From a virus, in IMG/VR virus record IMGVR_UViG_3300025316_000011, positions 1 through 64,000 of that record: 64,000 nt of DNA. One strand, given 5' to 3'. The position numbers and the translations under genes were made by a program. The notes beneath the pieces were generated by a model. That model searched no databases. It was not told the origin of the DNA and was given only the letters and a program-made list of their open reading frames with translations. Positions 9,726-48,700 of this stretch are shown piece after piece. Position 1 is the stretch's first letter. Each line of letters starts with the position of its first letter.

Positions 9726-10274
9726 ATGAACGCAAAAAGAACCACCGCAGAAGTAACAGCCGAAGGAATGAACCAACTCAACCAATATTCCGTTAAACTG
9801 TTAAACCAACTATTGCCGCAGCTCCGCGGGATGATGGATAAAAAACTTTTCACCGTAACCGGTGAAAAATCCGCTACCCTTAAAAAATTAGTTCCTTTGC
9901 CCGACTTGTCAGGGAAAAAAGAAAATCCCGACAGATATATTAACTATTCATTTTATTTCAACAATTCAAATACCGGAGTATGGCTCAACGTTCGTGTTTG
10001 TATCAACGGAGGAAGTTATGATGTAAAGCCAAATACGGCATACACTCAATATTTTGATACCTCCTATTATGTAGGAACTTTAAAAGATGGTAAAATCCTT
10101 GAGTCCGTTCAGGATATTGAAAACATTATCCGCGACCACTCATTAGAAGTATTTTACACGGAGGAAAAAATTCAGGCCGATATCCGGGCCTATAACGAAG
10201 CAAAGAATAAAGCCAGGGATTTATATAACGCTATACCTTATATTATCCAAAAGGCAATGAATGTTACATTATAA
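9726..10274 (+). CDS. Hypothetical protein, 182 aa
   Basis: The N-terminal 55 residues are helical (TTAEVTAEGMNQLNQYSVKL onward). The central part has beta strands with repeated aromatic residues (INYSFYFNNSNTGVWLNVRV). The C-terminal 50 are a charged helix. No enzyme motif, signal or membrane segment. It follows its own gap with a possible promoter element. Function unknown. Confidence 0.65.
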   Translation: MNAKRTTAEVTAEGMNQLNQYSVKLLNQLLPQLRGMMDKKLFTVTGEKSATLKKLVPLPDLSGKKENPDRYINYSFYFNNSNTGVWLNVRVCINGGSYDVKPNTAYTQYFDTSYYVGTLKDGKILESVQDIENIIRDHSLEVFYTEEKIQADIRAYNEAKNKARDLYNAIPYIIQKAMNVTL

Positions 10275-10490: not shown

Positions 10491-10498
10491 TAACTTTG
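10491..10498 (+). promoter_or_regulatory. -7 promoter element upstream of 10526
   Basis: TAACTTTG is an exact TAnnTTTG match, 27 bp before the ATG at 10526. The -33 region has no TTTG. Confidence 0.4.
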
Positions 10499-10525: not shown

Positions 10526-10699
10526 ATGAAAGATCGCCCGATGTACTCACCTGATTTATTAATAGAAGGCTTAGATCAAGTTTTTTCCGTCAGGACAGGG
10601 GAATTTATCGGATACAGGTCAAACGACCCCACAACGCAGGAAAACGGGCAAATTAACGAAGATAACGATATCCCAACAAATCAATTAACACTATTTTAA
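10526..10699 (+). CDS. Small protein with C-terminal clamp-binding-like motif
   Basis: A 57-residue acidic protein (MKDRPMYSPDLLIEGLDQVF at the start). It ends precisely in QLTLF, which fits the QL[S/D]LF-type peptide by which many proteins bind the bacterial sliding clamp (DnaN). The rest is polar and probably unstructured before the tail. It could recruit or block the clamp during phage replication. Next gene starts 1 nt after the stop. The motif is seen; the function is inferred. Confidence 0.6.
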   Translation: MKDRPMYSPDLLIEGLDQVFSVRTGEFIGYRSNDPTTQENGQINEDNDIPTNQLTLF

Positions 10700-10700
10700 A

Positions 10701-10907
10701 ATGGAAAAGCAAGTAATTATCCGGGGAGTAAAATACTCCATGAAAAAGACAGGTTACGGACAATATACCGTTACCAAAGAATTAAGCAAAAACCCTATTT
10801 CAGTTCATTCAACGGACAGTCAGACATTTGACTGGATGGATGATATTTCCAACTGTGAAAAAAACAGACAAGCCAAAAAATCTTTAACCAGAATGTTTAA
10901 AGACTAA
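10701..10907 (+). CDS. Hypothetical protein, 68 aa
   Basis: Small basic protein (MEKQVIIRGVKYSMKKTGYG at the start). The beta-rich first half followed by a lysine-rich helix could suit nucleic-acid binding. It follows the QLTLF protein by 1 nt and precedes a cysteine-rich protein by 4 nt. No family recognised. Confidence 0.6.
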   Translation: MEKQVIIRGVKYSMKKTGYGQYTVTKELSKNPISVHSTDSQTFDWMDDISNCEKNRQAKKSLTRMFKD

Positions 10908-11793: not shown

Positions 11794-12417
11794 ATGACAG
11801 CAAAATTTTCAATTTTCAAATCAGAAATCGTAAAAAGATGCAAGGACCAAAATGCTTGCAAACCGGAATTTAAAAGAATATTAGAATCGGGGACATTCCC
11901 TGATATTTTCGTAGTTCTTAAAGATAATTTCTTTTGGGCGATCAATCACGGAGTAATTGATGTTACCATCCTTGAATCTGTAAAAGGAGAGGCCGCAGAA
12001 TCAGCTGTTTTCGTAAATGAAAATGTTACCTACGGCTATTTGTTAGCAGGGGGCAATGCCACTGTGAAGGCATGGGACAATGCCACTGTGGAGGCAGGGG
12101 GCAATGCCACTGTGGAGGCAGGGGGCAATGCCACTGTGAAGGCATGGGACAATGCCACTGTGGAGGCAGGGGGCAATGCCACTGTGAAGGCATGGGACAA
12201 TGCCACTGTGGAGGCATGGGGCAATGCCACTGTGAAGGCATGGGGCAATGCCACTGTGAAGGCATGGGACAATGCCACTGTGGAGGCAGGGGGCAATGCG
12301 TTCATATCTTCATATTCACGCATTGAATGTAAAATCTCAGAGCATGCTATTTATCGGATTATTTCAACTAATGAAATAATGGTTGTTGACGGGTCATATA
12401 CTATTAAAACTGTTTAA
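11794..12417 (+). CDS. Octapeptide-repeat beta-helix-like protein, 207 aa
   Basis: The N-terminal 85 residues are a mixed alpha/beta region with no recognised family. Residues 87-166 are ten copies of an eight-residue repeat, consensus [GD]NATV[KE]A[WG], which should wind as a parallel beta helix with N, A and V inside. About 40 residues close the fold. Only three positions vary between copies (G/D, K/E, W/G). Such repeats occur in phage and bacterial proteins without known activity. It has its own promoter with an operator-like repeat. No signal peptide, so it is likely cytoplasmic or virion-associated. Confidence 0.7.
   Translation: MTAKFSIFKSEIVKRCKDQNACKPEFKRILESGTFPDIFVVLKDNFFWAINHGVIDVTILESVKGEAAESAVFVNENVTYGYLLAGGNATVKAWDNATVEAGGNATVEAGGNATVKAWDNATVEAGGNATVKAWDNATVEAWGNATVKAWGNATVKAWDNATVEAGGNAFISSYSRIECKISEHAIYRIISTNEIMVVDGSYTIKTV
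12052..12291 (+). repeat. Ten tandem 24-bp repeats inside a coding region
   Basis: The unit is GGCAATGCCACTGTGAAGGC plus ATGG, in ten exact-length copies. Variation between copies is limited to single bases: GGC/GAC, AAG/GAG and TGG/GGG. Copy number can change by recombination or slippage without breaking the frame. Confidence 0.9.
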
Positions 12418-12418
12418 T

Positions 12419-12841
12419 ATGTCAGCCCAGGAAATTTATTCACTCATAGAGAAGATTCAAACCGACCTTGATATAGTCAAAAGAGAGATAGGCTCAAACC
12501 TGACAAGTCAGGAGACTATCAAGATGATGGTATGTGAATACTTCAACATAACCAAAGACGATTTAGAATCGAAAAGCCGTAAAAGGGATACAAGCGTAAT
12601 CCCGCGACAGTTCTTTTATTTATTTTCAAGAGCATTACTTAATGTATCCCTTAAAAGATTAGGTATAGAAGCAGGTAATAAATGCCATGCCACCGCCTTA
12701 TCAGGCATATCAACCATTTGTGGCATACTCAACTCCGGGGACAGAACAGCGATGTTCCAATTTGAAGGGATACTCAAAGCCGCTGAACAACTGGGGTACG
12801 ATTCAATGACAGTACGTAAATTTGTAAGAGCCACAAAATGA
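12419..12841 (+). CDS. DnaA domain-IV-like DNA-binding protein
   Basis: 140 residues starting MSAQEIYSLIEKIQ at 12419. The C-terminal part follows DnaA domain IV: a helix with VCEYFNITKDDLESKSRKRD near 38-57, then PRQFFYLFSRALL, then GNKCHATALSGIST, where DnaA has the GRDHSTV-type signature helix. The AAA+ ATPase of DnaA is absent; the N-terminal 30 residues are a helix. It could bind origin boxes in the phage genome or compete with host DnaA. It lies just before the helicase genes and overlaps the next gene as ATGA. Confidence 0.65.
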   Translation: MSAQEIYSLIEKIQTDLDIVKREIGSNLTSQETIKMMVCEYFNITKDDLESKSRKRDTSVIPRQFFYLFSRALLNVSLKRLGIEAGNKCHATALSGISTICGILNSGDRTAMFQFEGILKAAEQLGYDSMTVRKFVRATK

Positions 12842-13272: not shown

Positions 13273-13692
13273 ATGGACTACATAGAATCAACTGTCACGT
13301 TTCAGCAATTCAGGGGAGATTTGTTGCCTATTTTTAGCGACGGAGACTTACAGGCAGCATATAATGACCTGTTATACGTCTTATCCTCCAATATGCGTTT
13401 CGAGATCACCGGAGAGCCTGTTACGTGGCAGTTAATCCTAAATCAATATTCCGCCCACATAGCCCAATGGAACTTTTACTTTAAAAAGTCGGAAGCCTCC
13501 GGTTATCTCCAAGGGAAAGACAGGGCAAAGAGATTAGAGATTCAGCAGTTCATCGAAAAAAGAGCATGGAACAAAGATTATATCATCCATAAAGGATCTT
13601 CCGAACGTGACGAATACCTTTTTGGTAAACTACCAGTAGATAACCTAAAATACCAGCTAAATGCGTTCAGACAAAAGTTCCATAAAGTTTAA
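13273..13692 (+). CDS. Hypothetical protein, 139 aa, upstream of DnaB-like helicase
   Basis: Helical, aromatic-rich protein. Its 3' end overlaps the DnaB-like helicase gene by 32 nt in another frame. Its position directly before the helicase gene is where a helicase loader often sits, but no loader motif or ATPase is present. That role is only a positional guess. Confidence 0.6.
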   Translation: MDYIESTVTFQQFRGDLLPIFSDGDLQAAYNDLLYVLSSNMRFEITGEPVTWQLILNQYSAHIAQWNFYFKKSEASGYLQGKDRAKRLEIQQFIEKRAWNKDYIIHKGSSERDEYLFGKLPVDNLKYQLNAFRQKFHKV

Positions 13693-15190
13693 GCCCGTTG
13701 TCATTGACGATACCAACAAGCCCATGCCACACGATAATAAGGTGGAATCGGCTATACTTGGCGCGATAATGGTGGAACCTGAAACGGCAGCAGCCAAACA
13801 GGTACTTTCAGTTATGAAAGCGGAACACTTTTACCTGGTGAAAAACCAATACATGTGTAATGCTATCCTGTCATTGCATCATAAGGATACTGTTATTGAT
13901 ATTATTACCGTTACCGCTGAACTTAGGGATACAGGCAGACTTAATGAAGTTGACGGACCCTACGGAGTAACCACATACACTGATGGAGTAAGTTCTTCCA
14001 CCTCCGTTAGCACATGGTTCCATACGGCCCTTTACCCGTTATTTATCCGTAGAAAACTCATTGAGATAAGCCAACGGATGATGGACAAGTCCTACGAAGG
14101 GACCATAGACTTCATTGACTTACTTGATGATTCAATAGATGAATTATCCCTTTGCCGCCCGGAGAATATGTATAAAAAAGTTCATTCCGCCAAATCAGCG
14201 GGTGATGAATTTCTCCGGGAAATGGGACTTTCGGATGATTCGGCGGCAGAAGAAGAAGTGTTAAGTACCGTTAAAAAGTATCTTACCGGACACAAGCAAT
14301 TTGATGATATAGTATCTATCTGTGCTGACAAGATCATGCTTGCAGCTTCTCATAAGGCAGGGTTAAAATCCAGGTTCACCAATCACCTGATAACTACCTT
14401 GGCAGAAAAGTACCCTAATGAAATCGCTTGCTATTGGGTATCATTAGAAGATTCAGCAAAGGAACAGCTGAGGATATATCTTTCTTCAAAGGTTTTCCTC
14501 CGCCCCGAAAGCATAAAGTTCCGCTTGTTCGATAAGATTTTCAACCCCGAACTATCCAAATGGGTGAAAGTATGGCAATCCTTTGATATTAAGATAAGAG
14601 ATCAGTCCATGAAGATAAAAGATATAGGAACCGCTTTTAAACAGTTTTGCGCTGAACGGACGGGGAAACTCTGTATCTTAATAATTGACAACGTGCTATC
14701 TTTGGATGATCGTAACGACTTCAAATATGACCCTAACCAAATGTATGACTACATAGGTAACGAAATACTTGAAATAAAAAGACAAACTCATGCATTGATT
14801 ATTCCTGTTCATCATTATAACGACGACGCGAGCAACAAATCAGAATTGAGTAATGGATACAGACCCCGCTTAGTAAATTTAAAAGGTACGGAGGTTTGGA
14901 AACGTGTAGCTTTTCAAACATTACTCATTAACTATCCTCGATACTATAAAGACTTATTAAGCCAATACTCCGGGGACCAAAAAGAAGTGTTACAGAATGT
15001 ATGGATACTTGACGTTGCTACCAATCGTGGTCATTCAGAAAGAGATGAAGAAAGCCTTATAAGGTTTTTCGTGGAACCTGACTTTTGCCTGTTTGAAGAA
15101 ATTGATAGCACTTTTGAAATGCCACAAGTCGAAGCACCATCAGACGTGATATATCCCAATGCCAATTTTGATAACCAACCCCCATTTTAA
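13661..15190 (+). CDS. DnaB-like replicative helicase with altered Walker A
   Basis: 509 residues. The N-terminal domain follows DnaB (PHDNKVESAILGAIM near 22-37, then ITVTAELRDTGRL). The RecA-like domain has a Walker B at about 339-346 (CILIIDN) and a later VHHY stretch. At the Walker A position (about 227-238) it reads AASHKAGLKSRF: the lysine and serine are there, but the canonical G-K-[ST] is G-L-K-S. This may be a lineage variant or a weakened ATPase. The C-terminus ends FDNQPPF, resembling an SSB tail tip. It would unwind the phage fork. The DnaA-like gene lies upstream. Confidence 0.7.
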   Translation: MRSDKSSIKFKPVVIDDTNKPMPHDNKVESAILGAIMVEPETAAAKQVLSVMKAEHFYLVKNQYMCNAILSLHHKDTVIDIITVTAELRDTGRLNEVDGPYGVTTYTDGVSSSTSVSTWFHTALYPLFIRRKLIEISQRMMDKSYEGTIDFIDLLDDSIDELSLCRPENMYKKVHSAKSAGDEFLREMGLSDDSAAEEEVLSTVKKYLTGHKQFDDIVSICADKIMLAASHKAGLKSRFTNHLITTLAEKYPNEIACYWVSLEDSAKEQLRIYLSSKVFLRPESIKFRLFDKIFNPELSKWVKVWQSFDIKIRDQSMKIKDIGTAFKQFCAERTGKLCILIIDNVLSLDDRNDFKYDPNQMYDYIGNEILEIKRQTHALIIPVHHYNDDASNKSELSNGYRPRLVNLKGTEVWKRVAFQTLLINYPRYYKDLLSQYSGDQKEVLQNVWILDVATNRGHSERDEESLIRFFVEPDFCLFEEIDSTFEMPQVEAPSDVIYPNANFDNQPPF

Positions 15191-15211: not shown

Positions 15212-15258
15212 TTGCTTTTATGAATTAATGTTGTATATTTATCAAAAATTTGTATCCC

Positions 15259-16203
15259 ATGGGAACACAGACCACAGAAACAGTTAAAGGATGGAAAGTC
15301 TTTGACAAAGATTTAAAATGTCGTAACTTTCAATTTAAAGTAGGTGAAACATTTGTTGAAAAAGGGAACCCTTCACTTTGCCACAATGGATTCCACTTCC
15401 ACACACATTCATCTCATTTATTCAACTATTACAATTTCTCAACGGACAACCGGGTTTGTGAGATTGAAGCACATGGTTATGTTGAAAATGGAGATGATAA
15501 ATCATGTTGTTGCACAATTAAAATTGTTCGTGAATTAACATGGGATGAAGTTTTAAGATTAATCAATACAGGCAGTGGGAACACGGGTAAAAATAATACC
15601 GGGTACATGAATACAGGGGACAGGAATACCGGGTACAGGAATACAGGGGACATGAATACAGGGGACAGGAATACAGGGGACAGGAATACCGGGGACAGGA
15701 ATACCGGGGACATGAATACAGGGGACATGAATACAGGGGACAGGAATACCGGGTACATGAATACAGGGGACAGGAATACCGGGTACAGGAATACAGGGGA
15801 CATGAATACAGGGGACAGGAATACCGGGTACATGAATACAGGGGACATGAATACTACCGACTTTTCCGCAGGGATATTTAATACCGTAGAACAACCTACT
15901 GCTATTTTCAACGGTGCGGCAACGGTAATGATGTCTGAATTTCGCAACACAGGACAATACCGTGCTTTATTTTCATCTTCATTCACCCTTGTTGAATGGA
16001 TTTATGAAAGCAATATGACAGATCAGGAAAAAATTGATAACCCTAAATTTTATGTTGCCGAAGGTTATCTTAAAAAAAGATCATTCAAAGAAGCATGTGA
16101 ATTATGGTGGAAGAATATGTCGGAGGAAAATAAAACCCTGGTGAAATCAATCCCAGGATTCACCACTTCAATATTCACAGAAGTAACAGGTATCAAATTA
16201 TAA
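15259..16203 (+). CDS. Pentapeptide NTGxx-repeat protein with a conserved phage N-domain
   Basis: 314 residues from ATG 15259 (MGTQTTETVKGWKVFDKD); an upstream TTG adds three residues only. The first 100 residues follow a conserved phage/bacterial domain with KGWKVFDKDLKCRNFQF, GFHFHTH, and VRELTWDEVL just before the repeats. Residues 103-197 are 19 five-residue repeats, consensus NTG[DY][RM]. The C-terminal 115 residues are unique and helical. It may be a cytoplasmic scaffold; pentapeptide proteins can mimic DNA, but these repeats differ from the A(D/N)LxX type. Function unknown. Confidence 0.7.
   Translation: MGTQTTETVKGWKVFDKDLKCRNFQFKVGETFVEKGNPSLCHNGFHFHTHSSHLFNYYNFSTDNRVCEIEAHGYVENGDDKSCCCTIKIVRELTWDEVLRLINTGSGNTGKNNTGYMNTGDRNTGYRNTGDMNTGDRNTGDRNTGDRNTGDMNTGDMNTGDRNTGYMNTGDRNTGYRNTGDMNTGDRNTGYMNTGDMNTTDFSAGIFNTVEQPTAIFNGAATVMMSEFRNTGQYRALFSSSFTLVEWIYESNMTDQEKIDNPKFYVAEGYLKKRSFKEACELWWKNMSEENKTLVKSIPGFTTSIFTEVTGIKL
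15565..15849 (+). repeat. Nineteen tandem 15-bp repeats inside a coding region
   Basis: Units such as AATACAGGGGACAGG, AATACCGGGTACATG and AATACCGGGGACATG. The first two units are divergent, the other 17 nearly identical. Variation is confined to ACA/ACC, GAC/TAC and AGG/ATG. In-frame copy-number change is expected. Confidence 0.9.
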
Positions 16204-16215
16204 AACCAATCAACC

Positions 16216-16764
16216 ATGTCAACCGATAAAGATTTACTCAATGAATTGTTTGCCCTGACCACTGATTTGGTCAATGTTTTAATTAGTGACAAACTGGAAC
16301 TTGCCAGAAGATTTGTTGCACTTGAAACAAAGATTAAGGACGTAAATAAAGTATCTGAAAGGGTAGAACAATCAAAACCCGATCTTTTTGCGAAACAACC
16401 CGCACAGCCACAAAATCATGTTCCGGCACAACCCGCGGCACAACATGAAACAGTTAGGATGCGGCCAGCACAGGAAGAAGAACCTGCTCCGTGGGAATTA
16501 CCTGAAAAGCCATTAAGTAATGACCCGCTGAAACCTGGTAATTCTGACAATGCTATCAGTTCCTTTGACGAACTGCCTGATCCCCCAAATCAGAAGAAGG
16601 TTAACCCTCCCATGAACGATATGCCGTGGGAACGTAGTTCTACGATGCCAATGGGGAAACAGCCCATTGCCAAACCTCCGCAACACAGGATTCCTCCCCA
16701 ACACCCTCCATTGACAAGTACAGACATTTTCGATGAACCAAAAGGAGATGGATTGCCATTTTAA
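16216..16764 (+). CDS. Proline-rich protein with SSB-like C-terminal tip, 182 aa
   Basis: The first 55 residues form a helix or coiled coil (LLNELFALTTDLVNVLI onward). The remaining 125 are rich in P, Q, E and D and should be disordered. The last residues are DEPKGDGLPF: acidic residues then P-F, like the SSB C-terminal peptide that recruits replication proteins. It may act as an adaptor in the phage replication complex. No OB fold is present, so it is not an SSB itself. Confidence 0.55.
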   Translation: MSTDKDLLNELFALTTDLVNVLISDKLELARRFVALETKIKDVNKVSERVEQSKPDLFAKQPAQPQNHVPAQPAAQHETVRMRPAQEEEPAPWELPEKPLSNDPLKPGNSDNAISSFDELPDPPNQKKVNPPMNDMPWERSSTMPMGKQPIAKPPQHRIPPQHPPLTSTDIFDEPKGDGLPF

Positions 16765-18868: not shown

Positions 18869-19858
18869 ATGTCAGAAGCACAGGACTATATCAGGATCGC
18901 AGATCACATAATTAACGGTACCCCTATCAAACCCGTTATTCAGGACTTTTCCGAGAAGAAGCCCCCCATAAAACTTTGTGAAATCGTTGACGGTAAGATA
19001 AAGACCATCATACTAAACCAGAGTTTTATGAAGTCTATCTTTTGGACGGGAACATCTACCGAATGGATTGGTTCATGGGACCTGCGACCTGATGCATGTG
19101 CGTACAGGGTTCTTAAATGCAACATTGAACACGCATTCAAATATCCGTCAAGTCCGGCAATGTCACTTGGAACGTATTTTGAGACGTTATGTATTGGTTC
19201 AGGCGCATACGGTAAGACCCGCGGATTACCCCGAAACACCCGAACAGGGGAGATAAAAAAGAATGAAGAACGTATTTTAGAAGCCGTAGCAAGGTTTAAA
19301 AAGTTGGCGGATGAATCAGGTATCTTAATAGATGAACGCAATACCCAGGTAGAGCAGAATGTCCCTATTCTCGACACAGGGTTCCCCGACATTCAGGTTT
19401 ATTTGAAAGTCGTGGCGGACATCATAAGCCCCTTTAAATGGAGGAATATTGACGAAGGACTTGCAATACTCGACCTTAAACTTACCGCTGATCGTCATTC
19501 AGACTTCTTTAAAGCAAGGGAACCGTGGAACTCCTTTTGTTGGTCACTGCCCGATAAAATGTCACATTTACAAGCATTGACATATTCCGCGGTATTTAGG
19601 ATGAATTTCATTAACCTTGTTTTTGACTATAAGGCTAAAGACGCGGGATTTTCCATCATTCCTGTTAAGACCATTACAAGTCACCCAAACGACAATGAAG
19701 CTAAACTACGTCACAGGGAAATGACAGAAGGAATTAAGAAAACAGTGGAGCAGTTGGTTGAATGGTCCGAATGGGATTGGCCTACCAACAAGGGTCCTCA
19801 TTGCAAAAAGTGTCCCGTCGAATCATGCGAAATGAAGAAATTAATAGAATATACCTAA
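18869..19858 (+). CDS. PD-(D/E)XK nuclease of the Cas4/AddB-RecE type with probable Fe-S cluster
   Basis: 329 residues. Core motifs of RecB-like nucleases: GTYFETLC near 101-108, the D-x-K centre in LAILDLKLTAD near 200-208, and the Q motif HLQALTYS near 232. Cysteines near the N-terminal third (DACAYRVLKC) and a C-x2-C-x4-C near the C-terminus (CKKCPVESC) match the one-plus-three pattern of Fe-S nucleases such as Cas4 and AddB. It probably trims double-strand ends for phage recombination. The adjacent SbcC-like ATPase and OB-like protein support this. Confidence 0.7.
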   Translation: MSEAQDYIRIADHIINGTPIKPVIQDFSEKKPPIKLCEIVDGKIKTIILNQSFMKSIFWTGTSTEWIGSWDLRPDACAYRVLKCNIEHAFKYPSSPAMSLGTYFETLCIGSGAYGKTRGLPRNTRTGEIKKNEERILEAVARFKKLADESGILIDERNTQVEQNVPILDTGFPDIQVYLKVVADIISPFKWRNIDEGLAILDLKLTADRHSDFFKAREPWNSFCWSLPDKMSHLQALTYSAVFRMNFINLVFDYKAKDAGFSIIPVKTITSHPNDNEAKLRHREMTEGIKKTVEQLVEWSEWDWPTNKGPHCKKCPVESCEMKKLIEYT

Positions 19859-22235: not shown

Positions 22236-22676
22236 ATGGTTAAATCATTACGTTGGAAGTCTGTGGATCACCTGAAAGGTCGGATTATTGACCAAGGGAC
22301 CCCGTCGGTTCAGCCGGAAAAGCCTAAAACCGGCAAAGCAAGTAAATACCTTAACGTCAAATGTGAGTATGACGGGCATAAGTTCGACAGTCTAAAAGAA
22401 CGGGACTACTACATTACGTTACAGGTATATAAGAGATACGGAGAAGTGATTAACATAGAACTTCAACCTCAATTCCCATACACTATTACCTATTCAAATC
22501 CCACAGACCCGGATAAAACCATGATTCAGCACGTAAAGTATATCGCTGACTTTAAAGTTGATTACGCTGACGGGCATACAGCCATTATTGACTGTAAAGG
22601 GATAAAAACCAATGTTTATTTGCGTAAGAAAAAAATCATTAAGAAGTTATATAACATTGATATAGTCGAAGTATAA
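22236..22676 (+). CDS. DUF1064 PD-(D/E)XK-type phage endonuclease
   Basis: 146 residues. KYLNVKCEYDGHKFDSLKE near 38-56 and VKYIADFKVDYADGHTAI near 96-113, followed by IDCKGI, are the DUF1064 hallmarks. The D-x-K pair (ADF, then IDCKG) and the earlier glutamate fit a PD-(D/E)XK nuclease active site, as in T7-endonuclease-I-like resolvases. It overlaps the next gene by one base (TAATG). Likely role: Holliday-junction or branched-DNA cleavage. Confidence 0.75.
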   Translation: MVKSLRWKSVDHLKGRIIDQGTPSVQPEKPKTGKASKYLNVKCEYDGHKFDSLKERDYYITLQVYKRYGEVINIELQPQFPYTITYSNPTDPDKTMIQHVKYIADFKVDYADGHTAIIDCKGIKTNVYLRKKKIIKKLYNIDIVEV

Positions 22677-25261: not shown

Positions 25262-25478
25262 CGAGGCGAATATGGTTCGTCCTGTCGAAGTAGAAGATGC
25301 CATGCAGACGGCTTGTATTAAGTTTTCGGAATGGATCAGAAGTCAGGGGTTCATTCGGTGTTATGATTCAGAATCATCATGGATGATATGGAAATCAACA
25401 TCATATAATATTCAACACGGGGAATGGATTATAAAGAATACAAAAGAACTATTTGAAATATGGAACCAACAACTATGA
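25194..25478 (+). CDS. Hypothetical protein, 94 aa
   Basis: Intact copy of a gene whose first 22 codons recur at 26327. The product has a helical N-terminus (LEILAKATLNTPEFLEF) and a later region with W and S (SSWMIWKSTSYN). Coupled on both sides by ATGA. Function unknown. Confidence 0.6.
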   Translation: MTQSLEILAKATLNTPEFLEFGNEANMVRPVEVEDAMQTACIKFSEWIRSQGFIRCYDSESSWMIWKSTSYNIQHGEWIIKNTKELFEIWNQQL

Positions 25479-26314
25479 AGGAAATAGTCAGTTACGGAGG
25501 AGGAACCCAATCATCAGCTTTAATTATAATGGCATTGGAAGGAGATTATAACTTACCCCGTCCCGACTTCGCAGTATACGCTGATACGGGTGCCGAACCT
25601 GAATTTGTGAATGAGTATATCCGGTATTTCATCGGGTATGTAAAGCAAAAGTATGATTTTGATATTTTCACAACGCAGCATAAAAATGGATTGGTGGATC
25701 ATCTTAAAAACGGTAAAAAACAAGATCGTAACGGTCAATTTTATACCACATCCGTTCCTCCGTTATTTACGCTTGCATTGGACGGCACAAAGGGAATGTT
25801 AATGAGACAGTGTACTTCCGGCTTTAAAACGCAACCCTGCAATAAACTGATTAACTCACATTTGAAACGGGCAGAAAAGTATCGGTTTTGGTTAGGAATA
25901 TCCTTTGATGAACGAAGCAGAATGAAAGTATCACCATTAAAGAGGCGTGAAAACTATTATCCGCTGGTAGAAAACTTCATTAACCGTGGCGATTCAATTA
26001 AATACCTGAAAGAAAAGGGAGTTAAGCCAGCACAAAGATCATCCTGTTTCTTCTGCCCGTTTCATTCAGATCGGTACTGGATTTGGTTAAGAAAATATCA
26101 TCCATCTGAATTTCAAAGGGCTATTGAAATGGAAACGGTTATGAATAATTTAGGAGATAAAGGCAGAGTAAAAACCGGAGACTTATTTACAAAGGTTATA
26201 TATTTCCTTCATTCATCCTGTGTGCCGCTTGACAAAGTGCAGTTTAAAAACGAAAATCAGTTAAACATGTTCCCGGAGATGATTGATGAATGCGATGGTC
26301 TCTGTGGAATTTAA
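25475..26314 (+). CDS. PAPS-reductase-like PP-loop protein, 279 aa
   Basis: The start is ATG 25475 (MKEIVSYGGGTQSSAL), overlapping the previous stop as ATGA. SYGGGTQSSAL is the PP-loop that binds ATP. Later conserved positions: DFAVYADTGAEPEF near 31-44, a CTSGFKTQPCNK segment, and CFFCPFHSDRYW near 190-201. The family includes PAPS reductases, DndC-type DNA sulfur enzymes and tRNA/DNA base-modifying enzymes. Its place after a C5-MTase suggests nucleic-acid modification. Substrate unknown. Confidence 0.75.
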   Translation: MKEIVSYGGGTQSSALIIMALEGDYNLPRPDFAVYADTGAEPEFVNEYIRYFIGYVKQKYDFDIFTTQHKNGLVDHLKNGKKQDRNGQFYTTSVPPLFTLALDGTKGMLMRQCTSGFKTQPCNKLINSHLKRAEKYRFWLGISFDERSRMKVSPLKRRENYYPLVENFINRGDSIKYLKEKGVKPAQRSSCFFCPFHSDRYWIWLRKYHPSEFQRAIEMETVMNNLGDKGRVKTGDLFTKVIYFLHSSCVPLDKVQFKNENQLNMFPEMIDECDGLCGI

Positions 26315-36771: not shown

Positions 36772-39700
36772 TTAAGGAGTGGTTAAGGCTACTGCCCTCT
36801 TATACCCTCCGTACACTCCTAATGTCCCTGCGAGAACGCTGAATTTCTTCTGTCCAAGTCCTACTTCTGTAAGTCTCAATGTCGTACCTAAAATTGGAAT
36901 AGGGTTTTTCATCCATTCTTCGGAAGCATAACCAAGCATAAGTTCGCTGTAAAGGTATGAATACTTCTGCTGGTCCTTCTTTGTCAATGTCCCGATGAAA
37001 TACACCAACCCGGCTAAAGCCCCAGCATAGACAAGGCTGCGGCCTAAGTTGATACGCCTGTGAGTAGGTAAACTCTGCCAATACTTTAACGGGTCTTTCA
37101 TGTTTTTAAAATCCCGTAAGTCGTGGATTACGTGTCTCCATGACTGAAAATGACCTTCCATGATATTCATTTCCCATTTTGTCATGGTGTTGCCTTCTTC
37201 ATCAAGATATGGGACCCACCTTCCCCCTCCAATGGTTTCACCTGTCTTTGCATTGACACCAAGATTATTCAAATGTGGCATCATAAACATTCTGAACATC
37301 CCGACCATTTTACCCTTCCACCCGTTTGTCATCAATGCCTTTGTAGCATCGTCAATCCCTACATATACGAACTGTGAAGCATACCATTTGTAATGATTGT
37401 TCACAATATCCCAATCGTCTCCCCTGTCAGGGATAATGTCGCTATCACTCATTTCACCCTGTGACTTTAACCTTTCCGTAAGGGCATTATACATAGCCTT
37501 CTGTTTGGCAGATTGGCTCCCATCGGAGTTGAAGTACCTCTTGTCTTTAAATCGGTCCCATGCTAAGTCCCCCGACTTAGCATCCACAGAATAGGCTTCC
37601 CATGCCCCGTTATGGATAAGTTGAGACACCAGAGAATGTACCCGCATCGTTTGGTCAACGGAGTTATCAGGTAACATCCCCCATGCTGCGGATAAAGCAT
37701 TTTTCTTAACACTTAGGTTCTCCATCGGAGAATGAAGTAGGCTATCCTCCGTCTGATTCCAATAGTGAAACTTCCGGGCAATGGCCCATACCTTTCTACG
37801 GTTGGAGAACATTTTACCTGCTGCCTTTAAGTGGTCAGCCATAGTAGGTAGTATTTCACTCCTTAATTCCTCCGGCATTCCAATATTAGCGGCTGATTGA
37901 GCAATGGCATTAACGGTTGATTTGAATGCTCCCGCGATAAGAACTTTAGGCGCCGTTACGAACCTATACATCAGCAAAATGTTAGTCATGCCACGCATGG
38001 CGGTATTGGCTACGTCGGCTGTTTCCACGGGACCGATAAGCGGAACATCAATAGTTCCTCCGTTATCCCGTTTGTCTGCATTCTGTTTATTGACATAACG
38101 GTTAAAGTATTCCTCCATAAATTCCCTTGTATGGCGAAGGTTTACGTTGTTGGAATTTTCCCATCCGGTCATTAAAGCCATCTGCGTATTATACTCCGGC
38201 AGGAACTCATTGCCAATCATTTCATCCCTGATACCTTTAAGCATAAAGTAGTTGCCGATTTTCTCAATGTCGTGAGAAGCCTTTTCGTTAAGGTCAGGGT
38301 CAAAAAGTTCAAAATGTGAAGTATTCCCATCCCTTACCTCTACCAATCCTATCTTTTCATGTGTCTTTGAAGGGTCAAGCATTTGTTGGTTAATACTGCT
38401 GAACAACTTGGTCATGCTTTTATCCTTGGTGACATCGGTGAAAATCTGGTCCGGTGCTTGGATATTGTCAAAGTATTTCTTCAACCCCTCTTTGAACTTA
38501 CCCTGCATAAGCATTTCGTTGGCTGATTTGTCGATTACAGGAATATGACCTTTTGGTGCACGGGAGTTCATGTCGTTAAACTGCTGCTCGGCATCCTCCC
38601 ATGTAAATTCGCTGATATTCAAATCATCATGCTCGCTGCCTATTTCGGTAAATTGATGCTGCCAGTAAATGTCTGCTATGGTACGCTTTCTCATTTCATC
38701 GTACATGGCATTGGTGAGTTCAAGGTCGGCATCGGTAATCTTCCCTTTGTCATATAATGGCTTTGTTTCGGGGTCATTCTTGTCCATGTGGAGAACTGTT
38801 CCCCGCACCGTTACCTTATCACCCTTTTTGTAGGATTTCCCACCATAGGTCAAGTCCTTACCCGCAACAACGTCCATATCCTTATAGAGATGGTCGAAGT
38901 ATAAGTTTCCTGCGGTTCCGACAAATGGCTGTGCTTTAATGCCATGTTGCGCCACTACCTTCTCAAGCAATGGGAATATCTTTTCATGGTATTTCCAATA
39001 TGCCGATACGGTACGTTCGATAGACATTTGCATGGCCCCTGCGGAAGCCTGGATAAAGCTGCTGCGCTGTACCAATGGAGAAGGAATGTTTTCAAGTCCC
39101 CCCCCTTTTATGTCAGCGATTTGGTTTGCCGTCTCAATATGACCAAATCCTGTTCCCGGCCTTTTGAGTTCATCCAACGTGGCACTTACAAGTTGATAGA
39201 TAGGGTCAGCAAACTTCTCTGTGTCGCTGCCTATCTTATGGTCTAATACCCTCTGCCATTCTGTTAAGGCTTTTATCTTTGCCTGTTTTGAACCTTTGGT
39301 GAGTAAGTCCCGCCTTGCTACGACAGATTCCCTTTTCGTGTCAAATTCTTCGTAAGGGTCCATCATTTCTTCCTGATTGGAGAGATATTCACTAAGCTGG
39401 TTGATGAAAGGGGTGCGCAGTTTATCATTCTCTATCCGCTTGTTTTGGATGATACCACGGATAGTGATGCTCCCTACCATATCCATAAATTCAGGTTGTG
39501 CCTTTAAAATGTCAAGTATCTTACCAATATCCTCAATGCTGTTTACCTGATAAGGCTTAACGCTGTTTTTACGTGTCTCAATGACTGATAACTTTCTGAA
39601 GGTAGCATCCATGCCTAACGCTTGCATCCCAATCATGAGTTTCCGGTAGCTATACATGCTGTCATTGTATTCTGCGGGGCCGCCTAATTTGCGATATTTC

Positions 39701-42700
39701 TTATCATCCATGATATCCCCCAAAATGTTCCGTTGCCTACCAATGACGGCATCCGTTCCCTGACCATAGGAGGTAACATCGAATATAGATACGTCAGCCT
39801 TCCCGTTTTTGTCAAATCCATGAACAACAACGATAGGGTCATAACCTTTTAAATCGTCTTTATACAATGACCTGAAACGTGGGTCTGCGTGTTCCGGCAG
39901 TTGGGAGTACCTCACTACGTCCATGGCTCCCTGTTCAATACCAAGTAGGTTGATAAGGGTTTTAAGTACCTGTGGGTTGTAGTCTTTTAATCCTACCGTT
40001 GAAGCAATATCAGAAATGGTAGCCTGTTTACTGTTATGAGTAGCAGATAACCCAATAGGGGTATTGGCAAAAGATATGAAGTTCTGTATAAGTTCAGGTA
40101 CTTTCCCGTCAATCATAGGATATTTGGGTGTAACCTGGTTATGAATGGCTTCTTTTAACTTCTCGTCAGTATCGTATTTGTCAGCAGGGAAAACAGTCTG
40201 ATGGGTTCCTTCGTTGTAATAATAGTTACCCCTTGCATTTACTCCCGTCTTTTTAACTTCATTGAAGATTTCATCGGTGACTTCTTCCGGTGTGAGTTTT
40301 GAGAACCGTAAAGAATCAGCGTGATCTGATGCTAAATGAAGTGTAAGGTCGCTAATGTCCAATACAGGCATCTTTGCGGATCTGCTTTCAGCCTTACCCA
40401 TTTTGTCAATGACTTTCATCTCGTCAGGGGTGAATGTGAACTTGTCTCCTTTTAATACCTGATTGGTGAAATCTTTAAAGAACTTTTCTAAGTCAGGGTT
40501 TCCAATGTCAAACCCGTCTTTTAATCCGAGTATGCCTTTTAACCCATTCCATAATTCGGTGACATAACGCTTCACGTTCTCATAGATACGTGTGGCGAAG
40601 GTTTTATCCGTCTCCGGTATCTTACTGTCACTTTCCCGTAAAAAGCGTTCTACGGCAGGAATAGAGGTAAACCCTCCCATGGTAGCCATCACTTCGTCAA
40701 TGTGCTGCTGCCCGTCAAGTTCGGGATAAGTAATCTTTATCTGTTCCGATAATTTGGCAACATCGTTCCCCCCCTGACTGATAGCATCCTTCACGTAGTT
40801 TTCAAATTCAGCATACTTTTCGGGATTACGTGACTTATACACGGCATTCCATATATGCTGTAACTCATGTACCCCTGTGGATGATGTTACCTTGTCAATG
40901 TTGTAATGTATTCCCTGTCCATCGACATATCCCCTTGCTGTTGGGCTAATACCTTTTTCCCGTAACGAATCGGAATCTTCCTTAATGAAGTTAAGTTGTT
41001 CAAACTGACCTTTTATTTTGTCAAGCAGGATTTCAAATGATTGTTGAACAACACGGTTATCTTGGATTTTGTTAAGGTCAATAGGCTTTTGAAATAGGGG
41101 CAATCCCTGTGCTACTTCATCACGCATTTTGGGGGTAATGTCAATAGAATGTTGAGTTGTTGAACCATTAATTTTACGTTCGGATTCTATGGCAATTTCT
41201 TGTAATGTCTTTTGTATTGCTTCCTTAGATAGTTGATTCCCTACATCTATCGGAATTGTAGATAGAACGTCATCATTCCATGCACGTAATTGGTAGTCTC
41301 CAGTATGAGGTGATTTAACCACAAACGAATCTGTAAAATCATTTTCATTTATAAGCCTTTTTGTACCAATATCTTTTGTTTTCACACTCCCCTTGCCCCA
41401 CAAACCTTCTGCAACCTGACCGACAATGCCTAATTTGCCTTCTGCCGGACTTCCGTAGAAACCTATCATGCCTTTGCCACCAACCTTAATATCCTGACCC
41501 GTCAAACTACGCAAAGTTCCTTTTGGTTCTTGTGCCATAAGTTTTTCAGCAACGTCCTTACCAATAATATCAGGCAAATCTTTAGGTTGAACTCCCGTTC
41601 TCTCTATTACAGTATTTCCATCATGGTCGTATGCTTTAAGATTGCTACCGCTATAATGAATTTCGTTTATTTTCTTTGACAAATCATACCGTTCATTCTG
41701 CTGTTCACCCGTTGTCCAACTGATACTTTCTGCACCTTCTTTTATAGCCTGTTTCAACGCAACTTTCAATCCAAGTTTTGTCCATGCTGTCGTTTCGGTG
41801 ACGAAAGGGGCATGAGTATGTTTACTCTTGTTAGCATCTTTATTTAAAGTTTCTAACGCATTTTTAATCGCTTCTTCTTTTGTATTTCCTGAATCAAACA
41901 CGAAATCTTGGGTTGCCCTGTCATACCCTTTCGGGGCAGTTATTTTCCAATAATCCTCAAATTTAGTTGGAGGTTCTACTATGAATCCTGTTGGTAATTC
42001 AGTTATGCTGTTGGGTTCTTTAAACCCTTCTTTTTTCCCTTTCTGCCCCCAATCTGACTGAATTTCATCAACAAATAAAACTTTCTTTCCGTTAACGTCA
42101 ACACGGGTGCTTAACCTTAAATGTGCCAAAATGTTATGTTCATCGAAATGGGATGAACGGTAATAAAAATCCCTGCTTGCTAACACATACGAACGTGTAT
42201 TGCGCTGTTGTGCATCGTTGAGTTCATCGTAAGGTACATTGTACTGTACGAAAGCCATTTGTTGAAGTTCATCGGTAGTAGGTTCCTTCGGTGGTAACGT
42301 TATCAATACCTCTTTGTAGTTCTCTTTGTCTCCGGGGAGTTGGTACGCCGAATATTTTGTTTGTGATTTTTCACGTTCTTCCTTACTTGTAAGTTTAGTC
42401 CTTATTTCATTATTTCTTAATTCTAATTTCACAAGTTGATCGAATGCTTTTTCTGGTATATATGTCGGTTTCTCCCCTCCATTTTTAATGAAATGATCTA
42501 CGTCACCCCATATTTCATCTGCAAAATGTGTGTAATTAGAATCCCGTTCAACTCTACTAAAAATAGCATTTTTTGCGTTTATGATTAAATCATATTCTTC
42601 TTGTAATTTAACCTCATTATCTCCTTTTGAAACTTCCCGAATATCAATCCGGTTATCCTTCATCCATTGCTGGATTTCCCCTCTACTGAAAGTCTTTGAA

Positions 42701-45700
42701 GGGTTAGCCTTTAACATATCATCTAACCCTGTATAGGTGAGTTCATCGCCCTTTACTCCCCGTGATCGTAACTGTTCGAGCCATTTGTTGCCAGTGAGTT
42801 TTTCCGCCTTAATATCCAAAACGGCTTTTTCAACGGGAGAATAGAACCCATTGATAACATCAAGGTATGGTGATAATGGCTTTACCGTTGAGGTATTACT
42901 CATGGTCCCATCGGTAGTAGTCTTTTCGGAATCAAACCCTCCATGCGGATAGCGTTTGTAACCTTCGCCACCGGCATAAGCCTTCATTTCCGTAGAAAGG
43001 CGGGAATATTCATTTTGGTCATTACCTATCCCATCAAGGTATCTGCCAAAGGCAGTAGATTGTTCATGTAACCCATTAGGCTTATCGTAGAACTCTTTTG
43101 GGATGATATTGATAGCAGAACCTTGTTTTGATTCAAGTCCGTTTGTGAGCAATATCTGATAGGCATACTTTGATTGTAAATCTTCCGGCAGTCTCTTAAA
43201 TTCATCCTGTAAGAACTCAACAGTTTTTGGGTCAGTTTCACTTATAAGTGAATTTCCCCTGAAACTACGGACAAACATGTTGTCGGTGATGCTGTCATAA
43301 AATTCACCAGGATTTCTTACCCCTATCTTTTCAAGTTCCCCTATGGCTACGTTTTTAGGCATATCGGCAATGCCTTTTAACCATGATTGGTATTTGTCAA
43401 ACCCTTCAACATATTCCTGCCTGTCTTTGGCTGAATATAAATGATAGTCCGTCCCGTTAAGGTCAATGGCTTTTTCCCCTATTGACTTCTTAAAGTACCT
43501 GTCAAGGAAAAGGTCATGGTATGGCTTACCTCCACCAAATTCATCCATTGCATGGTGTTCGATATTGGTAAGTACCTTGTTAACCTCTTTTGACGGGTCA
43601 AGTTCCGTCCGGGTAGCCTTGCGGGACAAATCAGGCATTTGATCTTTAAACCTGCCATGGTCAATATCATAAATCAGGTTGTCAATATGCTTCATGTCCG
43701 GCTGATACCTGCCAAACATCTTATTGACCATATCCATGAATGCCTGAAATATCCCTTTCGGGGTGTACCACGGGGACTTCTCCTTCTTTTCAAATGGTTT
43801 TTCAATGCCTGTCTTACCGATATAATGAGCTATCCATTCCTCTGCTTGTAGGTCGGTAATCTTTTTGCCCCGCCATTGTGGGGAATAACGCTTCATGGCG
43901 GTTTTGGATTCATTCATTATGATACCCTTACTTGGTTCATCCAAAAAGTAGTTATATACCATGTGGAAAAACTCATGCTTTGGTGATGTATATACAATCC
44001 CATCCCTCTGCATTTCAAGTCGTATCCTGCCATTATGAAGGTAGCCAAATACCTGTTTCCCGTCAATATTCAAAAACCCGATGCCATGTTTGTCCAGACT
44101 TTCACGAATATCAGCGGCAATGTCGGGATGAACGTTGGAATCTAACCAAGTGTTGAGGGTTTCTCGGCTGATTCTGCGGGTGTCTGTTTCACGGGATTCT
44201 TCAAAGATTGGCCCGTTTTCTTCTCCATTTCCATCCGCTGGTGCGCCACCCTCATTGCCAAGATTTGACTTGGGGTATACTTCGAGAACTGTTTTTTCAT
44301 CTGATAAATATTTATATAGGTTATTATAACTTTCTTCTGAAAATGGGAACCCTTGGAACTGATCTTTGTTGGCTTCAATTGATGATAACAGTTCTTCTTT
44401 TGTTGCCGTTGAAATATCAATCCCGTTATGTTTAACAAAAGTATCTAATGTCGCAAAGTCAGGGATTTCCGCATAAGCAGCCTTAATACGTTTTTTGCCT
44501 TCATTGATACTCATTCCCGTCTTTTCCTTATACTTGCGGGATATTTCCTTTTGGATTTCAGGAACTTTATCTTTAAATACGCTTTTGTCAGGATTGGAAT
44601 TGATAAAATCAATAACATCGTCAGGAGTTATATTTGAGTTATAACCCTCATTCTCTTCGTTTACAAATAAATCAATTCCTTTTAAATTTGTGTCATTTGA
44701 TTTATCAAGCAACCAATTTTTTTCTATCGGATGCTTCTTCTTAAACTGGCCTTTCTTTCTCCCTGACTTTTGTTCTACTTTAAGGGTGTTTTCATCCCCA
44801 AAACGAACATAACTCTTATATGAGAATTGTTCAGCTTCCAGCCTTTCCTGCCATGGTTGTAATCCACTTTGGGATGTCAACACTACCTGATCGTAGGCAG
44901 CAATTAAATCGTTAGGTGTAGCATACTTCGATTCAACCGCCCATTGAGGAAACTGTTCTTCACTGATATTTTCTGAATCGTTTTTCCTATCCTGTAACAA
45001 AGATTCAACTTCCGATGTTCTTGCGGCACGAATGGATTGCTCACGAGTAGTAAGCGTTTCTCCAGCAAATAACTTGTCCGCAATGGTGTTTAACCTTTTA
45101 TCAGAAACTACGTTGTTGTCAACAAACTCCTTATATTCTTTGGCAGGAACCTTTTCATTTTTGTCGGCTTTAATCTTTTCCTTTTCCTGATTTACGAAGT
45201 TAATAGCTTCTTCTGCACTTCCTTCACCTTTGCCAAATGTCACGGGAGGATTCGATTCCGGCCCCGCTTGAACAACTTCACCGGGTTTTATGTCATTAAT
45301 GAATACTGACGTATGTGGCAGCAAATCTAAGGTGTTGGTAAGGAATGTACCTGCCCTGCCAGAGAGTATGTCTGAAAGCCCGTATGCCTTGTCAAACGGC
45401 AACTCAACATTGCCAAGTTCGGATGATCTTTCGATAATCCTGTCAAACATTTTGGCATATCCTTCTTTGTTGGCAAACTCTTTTTTAAGTTTCAAACGAT
45501 AACCAGCAGCAGCGGTATCATATTCCCATTTGCCAAAATCCCCAATGATTTTACCTATCTCTTTATTCTTAAATTGCGCCCTGTTATTATGAATAAAATT
45601 GAAAAGCATGGTCCCGTCCATCTCCCCGTTTTGGGTAAGGTATGTGTCGGTATCCTTCCATGCCTTTAAAATATCGGCAATGGATTTCCCTTCGGCAGCG

Positions 45701-48700
45701 GCAACCTCCGACATCTTCAATGTACGCAGGATGATATAATTTGATTCAGAAATAATGGCAACAGGGTCATATTGGATAATGAGTTTCTGTCTCATTGTCC
45801 CTTTCTCATATATGTTCTTTGCGGTAGCCATGTTCCCAAAGACTACTTTCCCCTCCATTTTGCCAATCAACTCACTGACGGGGATATACTTTGTCCTGCC
45901 GTCCTGGTTTTTACCCGTAACAGAATAAACTTTATAATCATCTCCCAACGGGATATTGTTGGATAATACCACAGGGTCATTTGAGAACTTACCCCGGCCT
46001 TCGGTGATTAAGTCTTTTAAGGCGGCATTATGATCTTCTGAAAGTCCTTTATGTGGTTGGTCAAGCATCATAAGATACCTGAACTTTTCAGGTAATTCTC
46101 CCGTCTCATTAACCGATTTCTCTATTTCGGCAAATGCCTTTTCTGATAACCGGCTCCCCGTGGATCTCTTTAACTGATCGAGAAATTCAGCTTTCTTTGC
46201 TCCGTCTTTAAATGTGAATCTGACGGATAGCACATCATTCATCGTCACCTTATTCCCTAACGGGTCGGTCATATCCTGACTACGCAGATACACCAATTCG
46301 GGATTAAAATAGGCTGAAAGTGCATGGATATGCTTTGTGATGTCCTGTTTGGTAGTATGATCTTCGGCAGATACATCGCTGCCAAAAGTGTAATGAGTGT
46401 AAGCGTATGATTCCCCTGTTTCAGCGAATGCCGAGGTTTTCCCCTTTGCTACCTTCCCTACGGGTTTGGGAACATATTTATCCCTGTGGTTAGTGTCAAT
46501 GTAGCTGATACCGCTTATATCCATTTTTGACGGCTTCAATAACGGGTCGTCAATGTTAATGGCTTTAACTTCTGCTTCTGTGTCAGCTACCACAACTTTC
46601 AACGATATCCCGTCTTTGCCTACCGATACTATACGGGCATATCCTTTTGGGTCAATGGTTTTAAATACATCTCCTGCCGTTGGTTTTACGGTAACAGGTA
46701 ATATCTGGTCGGGGTCAGTTTTTCCCTTTACAGGTTCTACGGGTTTTACCCCCGTAGTCTGATCTCCTGTAACAGTCCTTAGTCTGTCAATTTCCCTGTC
46801 GTAGTACCGTTTGAGCAGGTCGTCCGGCAGTTGGGCCGGAGTTTCAACCCATGAGACATCTTCTTTACGGCCTTTGTTGAGATCGTCAGCTTTTCTATCC
46901 GGGAGTGCGACAAAATCACTTGCTCTGCCGGTGGCGGTATAGTAATCTGCATCGTTGCCATTCCTCTCAAAGCCGATATATACCTTCTTAAAAATACTGC
47001 CACGTATGGATTTCGGAGTTTCGCCATTGTCTTGTATGTCTTTATCGAGAACGAAAATGTTAGGATTCTTCTTTTCTTCTTCCGTCAAATCTTCGTAATC
47101 CAACGGATTAAGGATAAGTGCCTTTTCCCCTGATGGGTCGGCATAAAAAGCATCAACAACACCTTTGGCATCTTTAAAATACTGGATACCATTACCGTTT
47201 TCATCTACAAATCCGTTTGGCATGGCATCACCTATACCCCTAAACACATCATGGAGTACATTTACCAATGGGTTGTTATTGTTCTTCCTTTCGGTAAGGG
47301 TTAATGACTTTGCTCCTACCTTTGAGATATTGTCCGTCCCCTGACGGATATCACCCAAAAACAGGATGGTCCCTGATTTACCAAAATGGTTTTTAATCAG
47401 GATAATGTCATTGTCTGATAACCGCTGTGATTCGTCAATAATGATATGGTCCGCACGTTTTACACGTTCGATAAGGTCGGGACTATTCAGTACGTCCTCT
47501 AACCGCAGATATTCAGGCTTAATGCCTGATAACCCTTCACCAAGCGATTTCTCATTGCCTACCGATACTCCAATGGCAACAACGTCTTTGGAAAATGGTT
47601 CTTCTGAATAGTACGAATGAAGGTCGTAAAGTCCTTTTAAGAATGATGTGCTTTTTCCCGTCCCGCTATCTCCACCGATAAAAATGGAGTTATCCATAAA
47701 GACACGGTTCATGGCATCAACTTCGGCCTGTATCCCTACCCCTTTCCATGTGGTAAGGTATTTGGATTCCGCTTCAACAACTTTACCGAGTATTTTGTGT
47801 GCATTGCCATTATCATTCACCATAAAGGAAAAGGCAAGGCTTTGCGCTCCCTGAATCAACGGGTCAACGCTTTCACCTGTTTCGGTAAATGCTTTAAGCC
47901 TTGCTAACTCCATGCTCTTTGCATGAACGCCAAAAGTCTCAATGAGTGAATTTATGGTGTTGATATAGCCTACGCTTGTCCCGCCTTTGCGCGTTAAATA
48001 ATCATCTCCCGGTTTTAACTGATACAGGGCATCAAGTGACGATTTGTATTCTTTGTTATCGTAAAATTGGGTATTCAGGTAGGTATCTTCAATACCCTGC
48101 ATGTGACGATGCAATACAAGGTCGCTAATAAATGCTTCAAATTCTGGACTGTCAATAATCTTGTCCTGTAACTCAAACAGTCTTGATTTTATCTCTACAA
48201 TCTGGCGGTTGGCTTCATGTAACTTTTTACGTTCCCCGTCAGATAAGGTATATTTCATTTCCTTCCATGCTTCGGGAATGGATGGAATAGCCTTTACCAA
48301 GTCATTATATTCCGGCATAACGGAAACAATACCCTGTGCTATATTTTCTAAATCCCGCTTCGCTTTGTCAATACCCTGGATAAAGTATTTGTCGTTGTGG
48401 TTGTTTAACTTACTTTCATTAAGATCATCATACAACCTTAATATCGAATAATACCTATTGAGTAAGTTCAAATGCTTATTTCCCTGATCTTCCGATAAGG
48501 TAATGTCGTTTGGGGATAAATGAGGTTTCAGTTCGTCTTTTGCGCCAAGCAGATAGGCTGACCGAACAATCATTTTATTCTTTTCTACCTTGTCTTGTAA
48601 ATCCTTAATCTTTTGACGGATAACGGTAGGTTCGGAAGTGTCGGAAAACGACATATTGCTAATGGATAACGGATTATCACTGGTAATATCGTTAGCAATA

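Follow-up and report, generated by a model that had tools for sequence, protein, structure and literature searches.

A 57-residue protein of a crAss-like phage ends in QLTLF, a candidate clamp-binding tail

The window considered here is a stretch of 64,000 bases taken from a virus record of 81,022 bases (IMGVR_UViG_3300025316_000011), whose ends share no exact repeat of at least 12 bases. On its + strand, a short open reading frame (ORF 10526-10699) encodes a protein of 57 residues, translated as MKDRPMYSPDLLIEGLDQVFSVRTGEFIGYRSNDPTTQENGQINEDNDIPTNQLTLF; the TAA stop occupies positions 10697-10699. The features of this locus and of its neighbourhood are the following:

9726-10274, +: upstream ORF of 182 residues; weak match to phrog_13145, of unknown function (E 0.00024)
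10491-10498, +: Bacteroidota -7-type box TAACTTTG, weak, 28 bases 5' of the start codon
10526-10699, +: 57-residue protein with an orphan body and a C-terminal QLTLF (ORF list; codon preference)
10571-10621, +: predicted beta-hairpin, residues 16-32 (AlphaFold2 single-sequence model of low overall confidence)
10622-10681, +: polar and acidic linker, residues 33-52 (sequence; low model confidence)
10682-10696, +: QLTLF, the last five residues; candidate motif for binding the DnaN clamp (agrees with QΦx[L/M][F/L])
10701-10907, +: ORF of 68 residues without family match in Pfam and PHROGs; codon preference +0.242
12383-12841, +: 152-residue protein with a DnaA C-terminal helix-turn-helix domain (Pfam PF08299, E 1.1e-14)
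13661-15190, +: DnaB-like replicative helicase (phrog_19, E 1.7e-20; PF00772, E 9.6e-17)
18869-19858, +: PD-(D/E)XK nuclease, weak match (PF12705, E 0.00088, under the cut-off)
22236-22676, +: Holliday junction resolvase-like protein (phrog_190, E 5e-29; PF06356, DUF1064)

The 68-residue ORF starts two bases past the last base of the stop of the 57-residue ORF, which lies about 1.7 kb from the DnaA-type protein and 3 kb from the DnaB-like helicase, on the same strand. The + strand also codes for a helicase-methyltransferase fusion, and a Lin1244-type replication initiation domain is found near the end of the record (80391-80768). The octamer at 10491-10498 is of the Bacteroidota -7 box type; since 47 octamers of this type occur on the + strand of the record for 39 expected, it may be due to chance.

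Some other features of this region can be mentioned. The DnaB-like helicase has the C-terminus NFDNQPPF, which recalls the SSB tip. A proline-rich protein of 182 residues (16216-16764, +), probably disordered and without Pfam match, ends in GDGLPF, an ending presumably akin to that of single-stranded DNA-binding protein (SSB). Tandem repeats of the GGNATVEA type are found at 11794-12417 (+), with a match to a FapA-like beta-solenoid (PF03961, E 1.7e-8), and a giant ORF of 4884 residues (36772-51426, -) lies within a minus-strand block.

The coding bias of the 57-residue ORF is clear. Its codon preference is +0.182 bits per codon, a value reached by none of 139 spurious ORFs of 40-80 residues located inside longer genes (mean -0.187, sd 0.127). 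The protein was also modelled with AlphaFold2 as a single sequence, and the model (mean pLDDT 60) is to be taken as a hint only. It predicts two strands, residues 16-20 and 27-32, with a mean pLDDT of 85 for hairpin residues 21-30, and a floppy remainder: the mean falls to 60 for residues 31-40 and to 48 for residues 41-50, i.e., in the linker, and the pLDDT of 16 of the last 19 residues is below 50, so that the tail is of low confidence. The preliminary description had announced a 57-residue protein ending in QLTLF, as the ORF confirms, and made of a disordered body; the latter agrees with the low-confidence linker and tail but not with the N-terminal part, where a beta-hairpin is predicted.

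Bacterial clamp-binding motifs are defined as QΦx[L/M][F/L], with tolerance at position 3, and several of the known ones occupy C-terminal tails (PMC11139829; PMC3716654). QLTLF has Gln in position 1, an aliphatic residue in position 2, Leu in position 4 and Phe in position 5, as this definition (PMC11139829) asks. It is also carried on a flexible end, being at the extreme C-terminus and mostly of low pLDDT. Since the motif definition covers QLTLF, it is likely, as judged from sequence, that this tail would bind DnaN.

Among 84 gene-like ORFs chosen by hand (25,198 residues), Q[LIVM]x[LM]F or Q[LIVM]x[LM]xF occurs three times, and the only C-terminal occurrence is that of the 57-residue protein. 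A PAPS-reductase-like protein (25460-26314, +) contains QLNMF 13 residues before its C-terminus; as none of five relatives compared (out of 41 matching phage records) keeps QLNMF, this second clamp motif was rejected as unsupported. The internal QLYLF of the capsid protein was discarded as well, being judged to lie inside a folded protein.

The use of the same ending by other viruses was examined with a DNA pattern coding for Asn-Gln-Leu-Thr-(Leu/Phe)-Phe-stop. In the control pattern, Gln and Leu exchanged places (NLQTLF-stop). In the viral contigs, 110 matches to the pattern and 36 to the permuted control were obtained. An ORF of at least 50 residues is ended by 71 of the 110 matches and by 0 of the 36 controls (Fisher p 1.8e-13, relatedness being ignored), the longest open frame in the control having 30 codons. 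All 71 ORF-ending matches read NQLTLF. The other 39 matches are about as many as the 36 matches of the control, thus the excess of the pattern consists of protein ends.

Seventy-five viral frames reach 50 codons; they fall into 18 groups (blastp, E 1e-4), i.e., groups of 41, 6, 4, 4, 4, 3 and 2 members plus 11 singletons. At least two groups, one of those of four (that of contig L050) and contig L091, look spurious but were kept in the counts. The two largest groups are DNA polymerases and DNA methyltransferases. Twenty-one representatives were scanned, including five of the group of 41 and two of the group of six: six match DNA polymerase phrog_1252, two DNA_pol_B and two N6_N4_Mtase. Small proteins are present too, since 11 of the 71 tailed ORFs have 50-99 residues. 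Two of these reach the end of the available stretch; the other nine form four groups (61, 61, 73-76 and 84 residues) whose bodies are mutually different. None of the tail-bearing viral proteins matches the 57-residue ORF in tblastn. Concerning named Crassvirales, two annotated DNA polymerases were examined: that of phage cr273_1 ends in QQLELF, and that of cr4_1 in QLSLWD, a poorer fit to the motif.

The other genes of the tailed loci were also considered. QxxLF ends are found in 5 of 904 of them (two of the five being homologues), against 2 and 1 of 904 when Q is placed one or two positions later, 0 of 326 genes in the control loci and 1 of 391 in loci having the pattern but no ORF. That QxxLF tails are generally common among such genes is suggestive only and does not enter the readings below. 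Related tails on other genes are seen in contigs L010, L012, L043, L071 and L111, for example on a protein of L010 ending in QQKLF.

In bacterial genomes, at least 117 matches to the NQLTLF-stop pattern were obtained, the permuted control having been run on the viral contigs alone. Of the 117 matches listed, 33 close an ORF that reaches 50 residues (31 NQLTLF and 2 NQLTFF) and the other 84 close none. Ten of the bacterial tail proteins, among the matches listed, were scanned in Pfam: two have no match, and the eight others are identified as PolC-type Pol III alpha, MutS, UvrD-type helicase, family-B polymerase, Cas2, DDE transposase, photolyase and DUF763. PolC and MutS are clamp clients. Polymerases (PMC11139829) and transposases (PMC4549789) are also described as such clients in these papers. 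The DDE transposase ending in NQLTLF comes from a Lentimicrobiaceae (Bacteroidales) metagenome-assembled genome, and at least five further genome matches share its end sequence. The Cas2 belongs to Terrihalobacillus insolitus (L220:2038-2364, +); from its NQLTLF end one may suspect that CRISPR adaptation is linked to the clamp. As the exact tail is carried also by phage polymerases and methyltransferases and by bacterial PolC, MutS and transposase, the clamp-binding reading is strongly supported.

The body of the 57-residue protein is an orphan in all the collections searched. No homologue was found by tblastn in phages (best E 0.8, judged to be chance) or in plasmids, no relative by pattern scans of the viral and genome contigs, and no match in Pfam and PHROGs. 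Scans with the neighbouring proteins (DnaB, 182 and 68 residues) gave no relatives of the locus, and the nucleotide search of the region in phages gave no match. The sole relative contig obtained with TerL (L003, 68%) cannot reach the locus because it is only 5 kb long. A nearby DUF7666/pentapeptide protein (15250-16203) was of no help in this search, since its relatives, found in 170 phage records, belong to many other phages.

Crassvirales are abundant in the gut and in the environment. The record is read as a deep-branching member of this order, on the following sequence evidence: (i) its major capsid protein (69076-70539) matches PF23898, Crass_capsid (E 3.7e-20); (ii) a second protein scores 26.8 bits against the crAss muzzle, just under the cut-off of 27; (iii) TerL has 23-26% identity to four Crassvirales records and the portal 24-29% identity to cr4_1 and cr273_1.

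A family A or B DNA polymerase, present in most Crassvirales groups, was not found in the record. More precisely, the searches covered polymerase families A, B and C (DNA_pol_A, DNA_pol_B, DNA_pol3_alpha), the phage polymerase family phrog_1252 and a clamp domain (DNA_pol3_beta_3); each was positive in control genomes and negative in the record. It must be kept in mind that a polymerase gene may lie outside the record, since its 81 kb are less than the 95-99 kb of four named relatives and it has no exact end repeat. Thirteen records chosen for carrying other tailed proteins, most of them small, were searched as well: one has a family A polymerase and none has family B or phrog_1252. This count says little, since 10 of them are shorter than 45 kb and could be fragments.

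The balance tips, by a little, towards an adaptor role: the 57-residue protein would be a small clamp binder of a crAss-like phage from which a polymerase seems to be missing. QLTLF would dock into the canonical peptide pocket of the host sliding clamp DnaN, and the flexible acidic linker would allow the N-terminal hairpin to contact a second partner, for which a phage replication protein of the same + strand module is the likeliest candidate. Host clamp, together with the Pol III holoenzyme, would in this way be brought to the phage replication complex. We infer, with somewhat better than even confidence, recruitment rather than inhibition of DnaN. With neither polymerase nor clamp detected in the record, shutting DnaN down altogether would probably be to the phage's own detriment: a phage dependent on host Pol III gains by recruiting the clamp and loses by blocking it. 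The preliminary description had called the tail a clamp-binding type, which the other NQLTLF carriers and the clean permuted viral control strongly support; it had left the choice between taking over and blocking DnaN, of which the former is now favoured and the outright block less so.

Alternatively, and with less probability, the protein may be a competitor, i.e., it would fill the DnaN pocket and drive off selected clients of the host, be they those of mismatch repair, the translesion polymerases or, during take-over, host replication itself, instead of recruiting the clamp. Such a role suits a very small protein having little besides its tail, the same evidence on NQLTLF tails applies to it, and SocB, a toxin of Caulobacter, blocks the clamp through a clamp-binding motif (PMC9690074). 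However, a full block would stop the phage too, given that no polymerase or clamp was detected in its record, and the known phage inhibitor Gp168 acts at the DNA channel and not at the peptide pocket (PMC11139829).

It is unlikely that the tail is the chance ending of a small protein with another job. From composition, the probability that a gene ends in QLxLF is about 8e-6, which makes about 0.001 over 110 genes, or about 0.02 over 110 genes for a looser clamp-type motif; these figures alone are not decisive because the preliminary description resulted from looking for many things, this motif being one picked out of many possible. The protein is moreover an orphan, and the 39 viral matches without an ORF of at least 50 residues indicate that chance matches exist. 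Against this, the permuted control never ends an ORF of at least 50 residues, and the polar linker before the tail is what is expected for a linear motif. Finally, that the ORF is not expressed is very improbable: it is short and orphan and its promoter evidence is weak, but its codon preference exceeds that of all the 139 spurious ORFs compared and it sits in a run of + strand ORFs, with a neighbour beginning at 10701.

Returning to the adaptor reading, it may tentatively be extended. Some polymerase-less phages would possibly encode miniature «clamp adaptors», in which a bare QLxLF tail follows a small module for recognition and couples the host sliding clamp to the phage replisome, and which arise repeatedly on unrelated bodies; the repeated origin is suggested by the other small NQLTLF proteins (61-84 residues). 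For polymerase-less Crassvirales, a small tail-bearing protein would be a simple and readily testable link to host DnaN. More widely, since many unrelated phage proteins share one exact tail of the clamp-binding type, the tail offers a cheap finder of phage proteins acting at the replication fork of the host, and such a search covers small proteins that gene callers may drop.

The QLTLF-type tail is a well-known motif. In the literature searched, a collection with subscription papers mostly outside it, no description was found of QLxLF tails on small phage proteins, or of clamp-binding tails on crAss-like polymerases; within it, «QLTLF» appears in one paper, on archaeal PCNA. As regards crAss-like polymerases, the word «clamp» is absent from PMC11348598 and appears in other contexts only in the extract of PMC7544198.

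Among known systems, Pol II, Pol IV and UmuC carry a motif of the Q-L-x-L-F type, located for Pol II and Pol IV in the C-terminal tail as in the 57-residue protein (PMC11139829, PMC3716654); they are enzymes, whereas the phage protein has 57 residues and no recognisable domain. Insertion sequence transposases are proteins of mobile elements that bind the clamp via a C-terminal QLxLF, thought to be convergent (PMC4549789), but they are transposases and not small phage proteins. Gp168 of phage Twort, an inhibitor of the S. aureus clamp, is likewise a phage protein aimed at the host clamp; on the contrary, it prevents clamp loading by occupying the DNA channel, and does so by other means than a QLxLF tail (PMC11139829). 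SocB of Caulobacter reaches the clamp by a clamp-binding motif, and is likened here by its description; it differs in that it belongs to a toxin-antitoxin system, as the toxin, and stops elongation (PMC9690074). The phage DNA polymerases (phrog_1252, crAss-like) end in NQLTLF or similar, like the 57-residue protein, with the difference that the phage studied here, in a record without phrog_1252 match, carries its tail on a small protein of its own.
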